Translations under genes and position numbers: made by a program
Source: Melioribacter sp.
Lineage (GTDB): Bacteria; Bacteroidota; Ignavibacteria; Ignavibacteriales; Melioribacteraceae
Assembly (NCBI GenBank): GCA_023250955.1
Contig: JAHEZQ010000026.1
Location: forward strand, 1-61,186
Length of the DNA: 61,186 nucleotides
Direction: 5' to 3'
The notes under the pieces: generated by a model
Told to the model about the DNA's origin: nothing
Database searches by the model: none
Seen by the model: the letters and a program-made list of their open reading frames with translations, nothing else
In this document: piece by piece, positions 51,377-54,484 of the stretch
Position numbering within the stretch: the stretch's first letter is position 1
Layout: every line of letters begins with the position of its first letter

Positions 51377-51464
51377 TGTCATTGCGATCCCGATGTAATC
51401 GGGAGAAGCAATCTCTTTCATTTTGGATTGCTTCAGTTCAACTACGTTGACCTTCGCAATGACA
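51377..51464. repeat. 88-base hairpin repeat (TCATTGCGA type)
   Basis: TGTCATTGCGA and its complement TCGCAATGACA (51454-51464) close a unit that also contains the sub-hairpin TCCCGATGTAATCGGGA and the pair GAAGCAATC / GATTGCTTC. Same layout as 18242-18315, with T-T-G replacing T-T-T in the outer word. Confidence 0.85.
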
Positions 51465-51545
51465 AAGAAACAAACCAAAGCAATCTCCAAGCAAGTGATG
51501 TAACAATTATTTATTTTGTTGCTGTCTTCTTCAATTGAGGGCTTT

Positions 51546-53134
51546 ATGAACTACCTTTACCTTGGTGATTGCTTAAACGTTCTGCAAGATAATATTAAAG
51601 ACGAATCCGTTGACCTTATCTACATTGACCCGCCGTTCAACAGCAAACGTGATTACAATATTTTCTTTGACGACAAAGAAATACAAACCCAGCGCATTGC
51701 GTTTGAAGATACCTGGACGTTGAAGAACATTCAAGATTCTCTTAACGAACTTCATACGATGAAAACCGAAAATCTTTTTTATCTTCTTCTTACTTACCAA
51801 AAAGTTGCGCCGCACGCTTTTCCGTATTTGGTTATGATGAGTTTACGTATAGTTGAACTGCATAGAGTTCTTAAACCAACCGGAAGTTTTTATCTCCATT
51901 GTGATCCGACTATGAGCCATTATTTGAAAACATGCTGCGATATAATTTTCGATGAGAAGAATTTTAGAAATGAAATATCTTGGAAACGATCGCAACCCAA
52001 AAGCCATACTTCCATAAACTTTGCGAAATGTCGTGACATTATTTTAAGATATACAAAAACTGAGGGAGCTATTTTTAATAAAGTTCATGGAGATTATAAT
52101 ATAATAAAGAATATTTGGAAAAATTTTATAGATATGAAGATGAAAATGGTAGGAGATATCAACTAGACAATCTAGTTAATCCAAATAAGAATAGACCCAA
52201 TTTAACATATGAGTTTTTAGGTGTGACAAGAGTCTGGCGATGGACTAAACAAAGAATGATGAAAGCATATGCTGATGGATTGGTAATTCAATCAAGCGAA
52301 GGTGGAGTTCCAAGATTTAAAAGATATCTTGATGAAATGTTAGGTCAGCCGATTACTGATGATTGGAGCGATATTGAGCATTTACATGGTTCTAACTCAG
52401 AGACGCTCGGTTATCCAACACAAAAATCAAAAGTGCTGTTAGAAAGAATAATACAAGCAAGCAGTAACGAAGGAGACACAATACTTGACGGTTTCTGCGG
52501 ATGCGGAACTACAGTTGATGCGGCGGAAGGGCTTCACCGCAACTGGATTGGAATAGATATTTCTCCGATAGCAATTTCACTTATCAAAAGAAGATTAAAC
52601 GATACATACGGAAAATCCTTAAATAGTTTTGAAGTACGCGGCACACCAACGGATGAAGTAAGCGCAGTAGAATTGTGGAAACAAAATCCGAATGCGTTTC
52701 AAGATTGGTGGCTTACAGAGTTTGAAGTATTCTCAACAACATTCGGCACCAAAGGTTCGGATAAAGGAATTGATGGCGTTGGACAATATCTTATTGATCA
52801 AAAAGGTAACGACACAATCAAAGTCGGTTTTCAGGTTAAAGGCGGAACACATATTCAATCGAAAGATATTGATGCGCTTGTTGGTGCAATGGATAAACAT
52901 AAATGCCAACTTGGAGTTTTTCTAACAATAGAAAATCCAACTAAACCGATGATGGATACGGTTGCTGGATCGGGATTTGTGGAAGTGCCGGGTTTCAAAT
53001 ATCCGCGTCTGCAAATTCTAACACTCAAAGATTATTTTTTGAACAAACGTCCGAGACTTCCGAAAGTGAATATCACATTCAAAGCCGCAGCTAAGAAAGG
53101 GAAGAAAACTCATCAAGAGGAATTGGATTTGTAA
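51546..53134 (+). pseudogene. Beta-class DNA methyltransferase fused to Mrr-like endonuclease domain, frameshifted
   Basis: Two overlapping frames encode one protein of about 525 residues. Frame one (51546 to stop 52166) has the catalytic motif YIDPPFNSKRDY; frame two (from about 52100) has the FYRYEDENGRRY region, the AdoMet motif DGFCGCGTT, and, from ~52690, a C-terminal PD-(D/E)XK-type domain (EVFSTTFGTKGSDKGIDGVG ... KVGFQVKGGT, a D...Q-x-K site as in Mrr). The frames are split at 52095-52104, where TATAA is duplicated; removing one copy restores D-Y-N-K-E-Y-L-E-K-F in one frame. It may be dead, or phase-switched, or a sequencing error. Intact relatives would be single-chain modification-restriction proteins. 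Confidence 0.85.
52095..52104 (+). other. TATAA tandem duplication that causes the frameshift
   Basis: TATAATATAA (two copies) in GATTATAATATAATAAAG. Deleting one five-base copy gives GAT TAT AAT AAA GAA TAT, joining the two methyltransferase frames exactly. Confidence 0.8.
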
Positions 53135-53152: not shown

Positions 53153-53615
53153 GTCCCCTCTACAGAGGGGATTTAGGGGTGTGTCAAAAAAATATTTATC
53201 ACAATGAGAAGAAAAATTATTCCTTACAATAAAGAACTAAAAGAAAAAGCACGTAAACTTCGTAACAATAGTACACTTACAGAAATTATGTTATGGCAGC
53301 AGATCAAAGGAAAACAAATTTCCGGTTTAGATTTCCACAGACAAAAACCACTTGGGGATTATATTGTAGATTTCTTCTGTAATGAATTGAACCTTGCAAT
53401 TGAAGTTGATGGCGAAAGCCACTTTGGTAAAGAAGCGTATGATCTTAAAAGAGAAAATGATTTGAAGAAATTGGGTATACATCTTTTACGTTTTAGCGAT
53501 ATTGATGTTAGATATAATTTAGATCGAGTAATAAATAATATTTTGGAATGGATAAAACAAAATAAAGTTTAACTAAAAGTATGACACACCCCTTCGTCCC
53601 CGCTCATGAGGGGAT
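53153..53615 (+). mobile_element. DUF559 cassette bracketed by perfect 12-bp inverted repeats
   Basis: The left end has a hairpin GTCCCCTC-TACA-GAGGGGAT (53153-53172) and then AGGGGTGTGTCA (53175-53186). The right end has TGACACACCCCT (53582-53593), the exact complement, and then a hairpin GTCCCC...GAGGGGAT (53596-53615). The single gene inside fills the space between them. The mirror-image order of both elements at the two ends looks like terminal inverted repeats of a small mobile unit of about 460 bases. Confidence 0.7.
53204..53572 (+). CDS. DUF559 (Vsr-like) endonuclease-fold protein
   Basis: A 122-residue protein of the DUF559 family, a single PD-(D/E)XK nuclease fold related to Vsr mismatch endonuclease. 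The N-terminus has RRKIIPYNKELKEKARKLRN and LTEIMLWQQIKGKQ; the active-site part is PLGDYIVDFFCNELNLAIEVDG, with Asp and Glu at the metal site, followed by HLLRFSDIDV. No partner methylase gene is intact; the methyltransferase upstream is frameshifted. It is enclosed by the inverted repeats of the cassette above. Homologues are usually annotated as hypothetical or endonuclease-like; the substrate is unknown. Confidence 0.88.
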   Translation: MRRKIIPYNKELKEKARKLRNNSTLTEIMLWQQIKGKQISGLDFHRQKPLGDYIVDFFCNELNLAIEVDGESHFGKEAYDLKRENDLKKLGIHLLRFSDIDVRYNLDRVINNILEWIKQNKV

Positions 53616-53659
53616 GACGCGTTATTTTTTTTATAATATTATAAGCACAAAAAAATAGA

Positions 53660-54484
53660 TTGAACAATAACATATTGGAAAAAACAGCTTTGGTGTTATC
53701 TCAAAAAGAAACTTTGTTAAAGAAAAAGTTAGATCATCATTATAAATATTTTGACAAAAGTAAAATCTCTCCTGATCCTTTAGAATTCCCGCGCAGGTAT
53801 AAAAATTATTATGATGTAGAAATCTCCGCATTCATATCTTCCGTCTTTGCTTATGGAAATGTAAAACAAATTATCAACTCACTTGAAAAGATTCATGACT
53901 TAATGGATAATCAACCGTATAAGTTTGTTGCGGATTATTCTTTCGAAAAAGGAATGAAATTATTTCGTTCAGTTAAGCATCGTTTCTATACAAGCGAAGA
54001 CATTGCATATTTATTTTATGCATTGAATCATATCTATATCAATTACGGTTCATTAAAATATTTTTTTCTCCTTTACTACTTTGAAAAGGATTTGAATCTA
54101 AAGAGCGCCATTTCATTTTTCTCTCAACATTTTTTAGAAATAATTTCCAAAAAGGAAAGTGTAACGCATGGCATTAAGTTTATGTTTCCTGATCCTAATA
54201 AGGGAAGCGCATGTAAGAGAATGAATTTATTTTTGAGATGGATGATACGAAAAGATGAACTTGATTTTGGATTATGGACTGAAATCTCTCCATCTAAACT
54301 TGTAATTCCGGTTGATACACACGTTGCAAAGATCTGTTCAAAACTAAAACTGACTAAACAAAAATCTGTATCATGGAAAATGGCAGAAGAAATAACTGGA
54401 AAATTAAAAAGGTTTGATCCTAACGATCCTGTGAAATATGATTTTGCAATTTGTCACATTGGAATGAGAAAAATGAATTTCTAA
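53660..54484 (+). CDS. TIGR02757-family protein of unknown function
   Basis: A 274-residue cytosolic protein with the uncharacterised TIGR02757 pattern: DPLEFPRRYKNYYDVEISAF, ISSVFAYGNVKQIINSLEKI, CKRMNLFLRWMIRKDELDFG, KLVIPVDTHVAKICSKLKL and DPVKYDFAICHIGM. The helical HhH-GPD-like pattern near DTHVAKI recalls DNA glycosylase relatives, but I would not claim activity. The start is a TTG at 53660, since no ATG fits the conserved N-terminus. It follows the DUF559 cassette. Family is recognised from memory; role unknown. Confidence 0.78.
   Translation: MNNNILEKTALVLSQKETLLKKKLDHHYKYFDKSKISPDPLEFPRRYKNYYDVEISAFISSVFAYGNVKQIINSLEKIHDLMDNQPYKFVADYSFEKGMKLFRSVKHRFYTSEDIAYLFYALNHIYINYGSLKYFFLLYYFEKDLNLKSAISFFSQHFLEIISKKESVTHGIKFMFPDPNKGSACKRMNLFLRWMIRKDELDFGLWTEISPSKLVIPVDTHVAKICSKLKLTKQKSVSWKMAEEITGKLKRFDPNDPVKYDFAICHIGMRKMNF

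Follow-up and report, generated by a model that had tools for sequence, protein, structure and literature searches.

Between positions 53,153 and 53,615 of a 61,186-nucleotide stretch of Melioribacter sp. DNA (contig JAHEZQ010000026.1; the whole stretch is referred to here as the window), a single small gene of the DUF559 family stands between two inverted repeats. This locus raises the question of whether the gene and the repeats belong together and, if they do, what the encoded protein does to the repeats. An earlier note, made from the sequence alone, had seen here the layout of a minimal mobile element, in which a nuclease and not a classical transposase would cut at hairpin repeats. The present analysis leads to a related reading, held with somewhat more than even confidence: DUF559 would be the cognate nuclease of triplex-type repeats, and its cutting would let these repeats spread, in a manner like that of the RAYT/REPIN systems.

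The DUF559 locus of the window

The locus comprises the following features, each given with the evidence on which it was called:

51516 to 53134, forward strand: companion DNA methyltransferase, two overlapping open reading frames (open reading frames, Pfam, comparison with congeners)
53155 to 53186, forward strand: left unit, putative triplex repeat (sequence, hairpin pattern, rule-based finder)
53204 to 53572, forward strand: DUF559 gene, 122 amino acids, predicted Vsr-like PD-(D/E)XK nuclease (open reading frame list, Pfam, predicted fold)
53582 to 53613, reverse strand: right unit, putative triplex repeat, inverted and slightly decayed (sequence)

The perfect 12-bp inverted repeats that the earlier note had described around one DUF559 gene are present: AGGGGTGTGTCA lies at 53175–53186 on the forward strand and its exact reverse complement at 53582–53593, with the open reading frame (53204–53572) between them, and the two exact copies of this 12-mer in the genome are those that flank the gene. 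Taken alone, the 12-mer is not enriched, with 13 matches in the window at up to 3 mismatches (20.5 expected) and, at 1 mismatch, 4 matches in the whole genome versus 5 for the reversed pattern. Each of the two copies forms the tail of a larger unit, which is composed of a C-run/G-run hairpin, a short spacer, and a second G-run. The combined pattern of hairpin plus tail, CCCCTN{2,14}AGGGGN{1,12}AGGGGTG, has 4 copies in the genome of the window, and the second DUF559 gene of this genome (L002) has a back-to-back pair of such units downstream. In the left unit, a hairpin with a perfect stem (CCCCTCT-AC-AGAGGGG, 53155–53170) is followed by a spacer (ATTTA), the putative third strand (GGGGTGT, 53176–53182), and GTCA. 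In the right unit, the third strand is contained, as its reverse complement, in 53582–53593, and the hairpin (53598–53613) is imperfect, having one extra base in the stem; the earlier description of a CCCCTC/GAGGGG hairpin at each 12-mer is therefore accurate for the left side and slightly overstated for the right. The strict rule-based finder accepts the left unit alone in the window and fails the right one. A search of Rfam gave nothing above the gathering score in the window between 53000 and 53800 or in seven loci. Upstream of the methyltransferase, at 51380–51480, the window also has an inverted-repeat stretch (CATTGCGA ... TCGCAATGAC), which we take to resemble a dispersed repeat.

The gene between the units encodes a DUF559 protein (PF04480; E = 7.1e-32; 110 bits versus a curated cut-off of 20.6), and apart from MTES_1575, which scores below its own cut-off, Pfam gave no other family for it. 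The AF2 model of the protein has a pLDDT of 90.5, and the predicted structure matches those of 3hrl (Z 16), a gonococcal endonuclease-like protein, 3r3p (I-Bth0305I; Z 12.4), and 1cw0 (Vsr; Z 9.6). Profile comparison of the sequence likewise led to 3hrl (E = 8e-27) and to the homing endonuclease I-Bth0305I (E = 3e-4). Asp56, Glu67, Asp69, and His73 are invariant in 37 homologues and likely form the predicted active site. On the basis of this model, the protein is a predicted Vsr-like PD-(D/E)XK nuclease; we know of no joining activity for a Vsr-like fold. Elsewhere, the EDxHD family is described as including a DUF559 gene (passage of PMC9403480), and a passage of PMC12308824 counts segments that carry a transposase together with a DUF559 gene among the mutation and recombination hotspots of another species.

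The surroundings of the locus can be compared with congeners through the TIGR02757 protein encoded next to it, which has 8 other matches in 12 congeneric genomes, with pdxJ directly upstream in 5. Relative to these five, the window carries an additional ~2.2 kb between the two genes, made up of the methyltransferase region and the DUF559 unit. The methyltransferase frames (51516–52166 and 52115–53134, the second fused to Mrr_cat, an Mrr-type nuclease domain) are possibly the product of a frameshift. Homology to one congener (L209) resumes at 53645 through a short match (E = 0.011) and to four others at 53696–53699, and the right unit ends at 53613. The site was considered as a clean empty site for the DUF559 unit and rejected, as the insert holds the methyltransferase too. 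DUF559 is the sole cargo of the repeats, as had been proposed, and not of the insertion; the unit may have arrived either alone or together with the methyltransferase.

The repeat as a candidate three-strand motif

In purine intrastrand triplexes, the third strand follows a code in which G is placed on a G-C pair and A or T on an A-T pair. By reading, the third strand of the left unit matches 7 of 7 stem pairs (G on C-G, T on T-A), and GGGGTGT mirrors the purine arm AGAGGGG, a T standing against each A-T pair. In the folded unit, the second G-run would lie in the groove of the hairpin as a third strand. A larger sample was drawn from all collected loci, using hairpins of at least 6 pairs with a GGGG tail; the selection ignored the tail beyond its four Gs, and stem positions 5–9 were tested. 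Among 398 distinct units, the third strand obeys the triplex code in 989 of 1246 positions, versus 643 (sd 17) after the third strands were shuffled among these units. When each locus contributes a single unit, as 74 of the 80 loci can, the figure is ~185 of 216 versus 118, which is the fairer comparison because the shuffles leave relatedness in place. For instance, where a T-A stem pair has become C-G, the third strand has G in place of T (TGGGT instead of TGTGT). In sequence, the stem and the third strand covary as triplex rules require, and the units of the window appear as members of the BoxC/PIT/intrastrand-triplex class, in which the hairpin would supply two of the three strands.

This class leads to Escherichia coli. 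In strain K-12, DUF559 is represented by ycjD, and the palindrome near the 3' end of this gene has the coordinates of TM_ECO no. 9, a BoxC/PIT repeat in Table 1 of Holder 2015 (PMC4666352). Passages of that paper state that knowledge of BoxC/PIT/triplex repeats goes back to the 1990s, that intrastrand triplex motifs are dispersed in more than 260 genomes, that the triplex form of the E. coli motif was shown in vitro and is unsupported in vivo, and that genome instability occurs at BoxC sites and differs between E. coli strains (PMC4666352). The same passages report no mobility genes near these repeats, and the words endonuclease, ycjD, DUF, and Vsr are absent from the main text. A link between DUF559 and BoxC/PIT was not found in the literature searched, which covers few subscription papers. 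The earlier view that the element is of an undescribed type thus has to be given up for the repeat, which is known (Holder, 2015), and stands, within that literature, for its link to DUF559.

Occupancy of BoxC sites differs among E. coli genomes. The BoxC query has matches in 5375 of 5426 genomes, at a median of 17 places. Between pstB and pstA, 40 records sampled evenly down the ranking comprise 16 with BoxC, 23 that are shorter by 92 bp, and 1 that is another place. When two alleles of each kind were aligned, the 92 bp proved to be bounded by an 8-bp direct repeat, with a further copy of the 8-bp sequence inside the insert. The polymorphism fits either an insertion with target duplication or a deletion between short repeats. 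BoxC is also polymorphic at adk-hemH and yjdP-phnP, where no clean target duplication was seen; the 8-bp repeat is clean at 1 of the 3 sites aligned. The fabI-sapF site (L176–L181), occupied either by ycjD or by an efflux operon, was considered as a clean empty site and rejected, since five records without ycjD carry the efflux genes there (named eef in a passage of PMC12817139). Repeat number was set against the presence of ycjD on listings of 20 of 5410 and 30 of 5375 records, which comprise different genomes: one ST131 record (H12) has, among the matches listed, a single BoxC place, and in another ST131 record (L181) efflux genes adjoin sapF.

Association of DUF559 genes with the repeats

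For a wider survey, species genomes were scanned with a DUF559 alignment, thus by protein only, and the best 80 of 554 loci were kept; four long fused frames were dropped and eight loci with cut flanks retained, leaving 76 stand-alone loci, many of them from metagenome-assembled genomes. A unit lies within 250 bp of the gene in 71 of these 76 (best 80 of 554), and on both sides in 36. Counted by flank, 107 of 152 windows contain a unit, versus 19 of 1937 control windows from the same loci (odds ratio 240, p = 1e-121), where the controls mix coding and intergenic DNA and the units are mostly intergenic. Record titles gave phylum names for 71 of the 76 loci, and each of the 17 phyla so named has a locus with a classed unit. 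Among close relatives (31 loci, of which ten fused or long frames were excluded), a unit stands beside 20 of 21 stand-alone DUF559 genes, in 3 cases on both sides, compared with 2 of 83 controls. The loci without a unit number 5 of 76 in the wider set and 1 of 21 among the close relatives. It had been proposed earlier to test homologues for the same repeats on both sides, and that rarely flanked homologues, or equally frequent repeats around unrelated genes, would speak against the pairing; neither was found. That DUF559 genes and the repeats are tightly associated is virtually certain.

The orientation of the units is less uniform than their presence. The nearest unit points towards the gene in 50 of 58 loci on the upstream side and in 38 of 49 on the downstream side, so that the mirror order described for the window is that of the majority; it is no rule, as the nearest downstream unit is direct, not inverted, in 11 of 49 loci, and one-sided loci occur too. 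In several loci, inspected by eye, the stop codon lies within the downstream unit.

The repeats also occur away from the gene. In 57 related genomes, the exact pattern has 80 copies, versus 1 for the reversed pattern. Of these 80, 26 have a DUF559 match within 500 bp, where ~0.0006 would be expected per copy, and the other 54 are gene-less, being more than 500 bp from any such match; the earlier note had proposed to look for copies of this kind. Gene-less copies are found in 22 of 41 genomes with DUF559 versus 0 of 16 others (p = 1.3e-4). Conversely, a unit of the exact pattern is within 500 bp of only 20 of the 98 DUF559 matches in these relatives, a figure that is low because a single exact pattern covers just some of the repeat classes. 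DUF559 itself is multi-copy, with up to 10 matches per genome.

These distant copies bear on the idea that the units serve the DUF559 gene as terminator or attenuator hairpins and spread along with it by ordinary horizontal transfer. GC-rich hairpins beside the gene, on one side or on both, and the stop codons inside downstream units, would agree with such a role, which is nevertheless extremely improbable: 54 of the 80 copies in the relatives have no DUF559 gene at hand to terminate, 11 of 49 nearest downstream units are direct, and covariation of a third strand plays no role in a terminator. Earlier work cited in a passage of PMC4666352 also describes the E. coli copies as being without promoter or terminator activity.

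At the level of genomes, the repeat and the protein co-occur. In a sample of 296 genomes of the phylum Bacteroidota, the pattern is present in 105, with 960 copies (1 for the reversed control), and DUF559 is present at E ≤ 1e-15 in 125. Both were found in 89 genomes, the pattern only in 16, DUF559 only in 36, and neither in 155 (odds ratio 24, p = 2e-29); that is, DUF559 is present in 89 of 105 repeat-positive versus 36 of 191 repeat-negative genomes, and 900 of the 960 copies are in genomes with DUF559. At E ≤ 0.001 for DUF559, the same table reads 93, 12, 77, and 114 (odds ratio 11). The association is also seen in this sample when each genus is represented by a single genome (median p 3e-13, worst 3e-9) and within genera (odds ratio 14, ten informative genera). 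A draw of 78 genomes from the phylum to which the Nostoc locus L140 belongs gave 32, 8, 9, and 29 (odds ratio 13, p = 1e-6), with DUF559 in 32 of 40 repeat-positive versus 9 of 38 repeat-negative genomes and 596 of 648 copies in genomes with DUF559. The reversed pattern has 1 copy versus the 648 in these 78 genomes, and 0 versus 461 in another count; chance or base composition as the source of the repeats was rejected on the reversed-pattern and control-window counts. The genome-level totals include copies beside DUF559, and the association in them is therefore partly built in; the test on distant copies is the cleaner one. In the 296- and 78-genome samples, respectively, the pattern is absent from 36 of 125 and 9 of 41 genomes with DUF559, and a DUF559 match at E ≤ 1e-15 is lacking in 16 of the 105 and 8 of the 40 genomes that are repeat-positive. 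Among the latter are G137, with 20 triplex repeats, and G354, with 31, and their orphan repeats possibly date from an enzyme since lost.

The repeats fall into classes, which can be compared with the phylogeny of the protein. The 71 genes of 69 loci, the window, and L002 were each assigned the repeat class of their neighbouring unit, which gave groups of 31, 24, and 16 genes. On the DUF559 tree, many forks of which are weakly supported, the repeat class needs 9 changes versus 32 after shuffling, and 0 of 200 shuffles are as low. With shuffling restricted to within phyla (65 genes), 8 changes were observed versus a mean of 22 and a minimum of 16. Within Bacteroidota, there are 2 changes versus 11.5; the remaining phyla together give a weaker signal (7 versus 12.5, minimum 9), and the cyanobacteria are uninformative (1 versus 1.0). 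As far as the tree can be read, the repeat class follows the DUF559 clade, within phyla too.

DUF559 has also been found inside other genes. In four proteins scanned, it is in frame within methionine synthase, where it separates the cap from the Rossmann part of the cobalamin module. The metH frame has 1365–1405 amino acids with DUF559 in 7 of the 57 relatives, and mostly 1225–1278 elsewhere; 4 of the 57 are without a strong metH match, and one (G032) has a long frame (1533 amino acids) without a DUF559 match. In the genus of the window, 2 of 12 genomes have the insert, and congeners with an empty site exist, which provides the empty target sites for which the earlier note had proposed to test. 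Comparison of filled and empty alleles indicates that the inserts are flanked by repeat sequence that is translated, and a rule-conforming unit is present on at least one flank in 6 of the 6 filled loci examined. In the congener L151, the same site holds a repeat-like insertion without DUF559. Pfam (E ≤ 0.001) found no intein domain in the four metH proteins, and the insert is read in frame. At L008, L011, L015, L019, and further metH loci, the nuclease domain and its translated flanking repeats are patchily distributed within one genus.

The fact that the metH inserts occupy one site would suit a homing-type parasite that lands in pre-existing triplex repeats, the gene dropping between two repeats since its nuclease cuts there, and the repeats having spread otherwise, by slippage or gene conversion. 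Of the two solved proteins to which the profile comparison led, one is a homing endonuclease, which agrees with this, as do the repeat-positive genomes without DUF559. Such a parasite is unlikely, as gene-less copies in the 57 relatives are confined to genomes with DUF559, and the repeat class follows the protein clade within phyla, of which a generic landing site would have no need. Furthermore, the repeats accompany the gene into metH, where the empty sequences shown are repeat-free except for L151. Alternatively, DUF559 could be a repair or guard nuclease that processes triplexes (at stalled forks or in slipped strands) and is kept near them without any movement. Its Vsr-like fold is consistent with such a task, as are the instability of BoxC loci in E. 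coli (passages of PMC4666352) and Caulobacter VsrA, which carries a DUF559 domain, is SOS-linked, and has a proposed role in mismatch repair (passages of PMC12907096). This role is distinctly unlikely, for it leaves unexplained why units frame the gene, why the gene occurs in frame within metH and in multiple copies, and why repeat class tracks with clade.

Two further settings of DUF559 were observed. In the HsdR proteins of L007, L009, and L013, the domain lies between the N-terminal and SWI2/SNF2 parts, and HsdR of L013 additionally carries a GIY-YIG domain; 2 of these 3 embedded domains have no unit, and they therefore look like plain domain fusions. In five related genomes, a DUF559 gene is inside a CRISPR-Cas operon, with neighbours confirmed by Pfam: cas1 is upstream and cas2 downstream of it in L024, L030, and L034, and it lies between cas6b and cas1 in L018 and between cas7 and cas4 in L021. 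The gene is there either as a part of the CRISPR system or as an insertion.

A proposed mechanism and comparison with known systems

In the reading preferred here, the window gene and its two flanking units would be one copy of a widespread nuclease–repeat pair. That DUF559 acts on its unit is probable, and that it mobilises the repeats is moderately likely. The protein would bind and cut the unit, most likely recognising folded or nicked unit DNA, with the triplex, and not the hairpin or the duplex, as the signal. Cutting at or near the unit would drive movement, probably via a nick or break that is followed by host repair, and the repeats would spread through the genome either alone or with the enclosed gene. 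As the same pairing recurs across phyla, including E. coli, DUF559 may be the missing partner of the repeat family. BoxC/PIT/triplex repeats have so far been without a known agent and the DUF559 family has been largely unexplained; the link between them makes both testable in E. coli K-12, and mobilisation, if true, would account for repeat remnants and for in-frame nuclease inserts such as that in methionine synthase. A broader proposal, which is tentative and given slightly less than even weight, is that of a new class of mobile element, in which a Vsr-like nuclease recognises triplex-capable DNA and moves both gene-carrying units, even into housekeeping genes like metH, and gene-less repeats, coevolving with a repeat class of its own across the bacterial domain. 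BoxC would then be its non-autonomous progeny and YcjD the resident enzyme.

BoxC/PIT/TM_ECO repeats are the same repeat, namely a dispersed hairpin with a purine third strand; what differs from their published description is that the repeats are here linked to a nuclease gene, that the repeat classes are clade-specific, and that 17 named phyla are covered. A classical insertion sequence or MITE has terminal inverted repeats and a target-site duplication; the units here may be inverted, direct, or one-sided, and an 8-bp direct repeat was seen at 1 of the 3 E. coli sites aligned. E. coli Vsr shares its fold with DUF559 (Z 9.6), and Caulobacter VsrA has the same domain; passages of PMC12907096 propose for VsrA a role in very-short-patch repair linked to cytosine methylation, and do not discuss repeats. 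The EDxHD/Vsr-like homing endonuclease I-Bth0305I also has this fold (Z 12.4), and homing endonucleases resemble DUF559 in having a fixed site in a conserved gene (here metH) with empty alleles in relatives. Unlike them, DUF559 was seen with no intron or intein, and its free-standing copies are framed by repeats.

The closest likeness in logic, which the earlier note had already drawn, is to the RAYT/REPIN systems, and it fits. Both have a small enzyme gene framed by palindromic repeats, a repeat class matched to the enzyme clade, and gene-less copies dispersed in the genomes that carry the enzyme (22 of 41 versus 0 of 16 here). RAYTs are HUH/Y1 tyrosine enzymes that act on hairpins tagged with GTAG. 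DUF559, on the other hand, is a predicted PD-(D/E)XK enzyme with a Vsr fold and no HUH/Y1 transposase, and its repeat is three-stranded by prediction. Beside the two units of the window, no GTAG/CGTC tag was seen. As the enzyme is unrelated and the DNA fold different, the DUF559 pair is no member of the RAYT-REPIN family, which by analogy provides the best working model for its logic. To our knowledge, no known element combines this enzyme fold with this DNA structure. The repeat and the protein family were each known already; what is new, within the literature searched, is the pair as a system.
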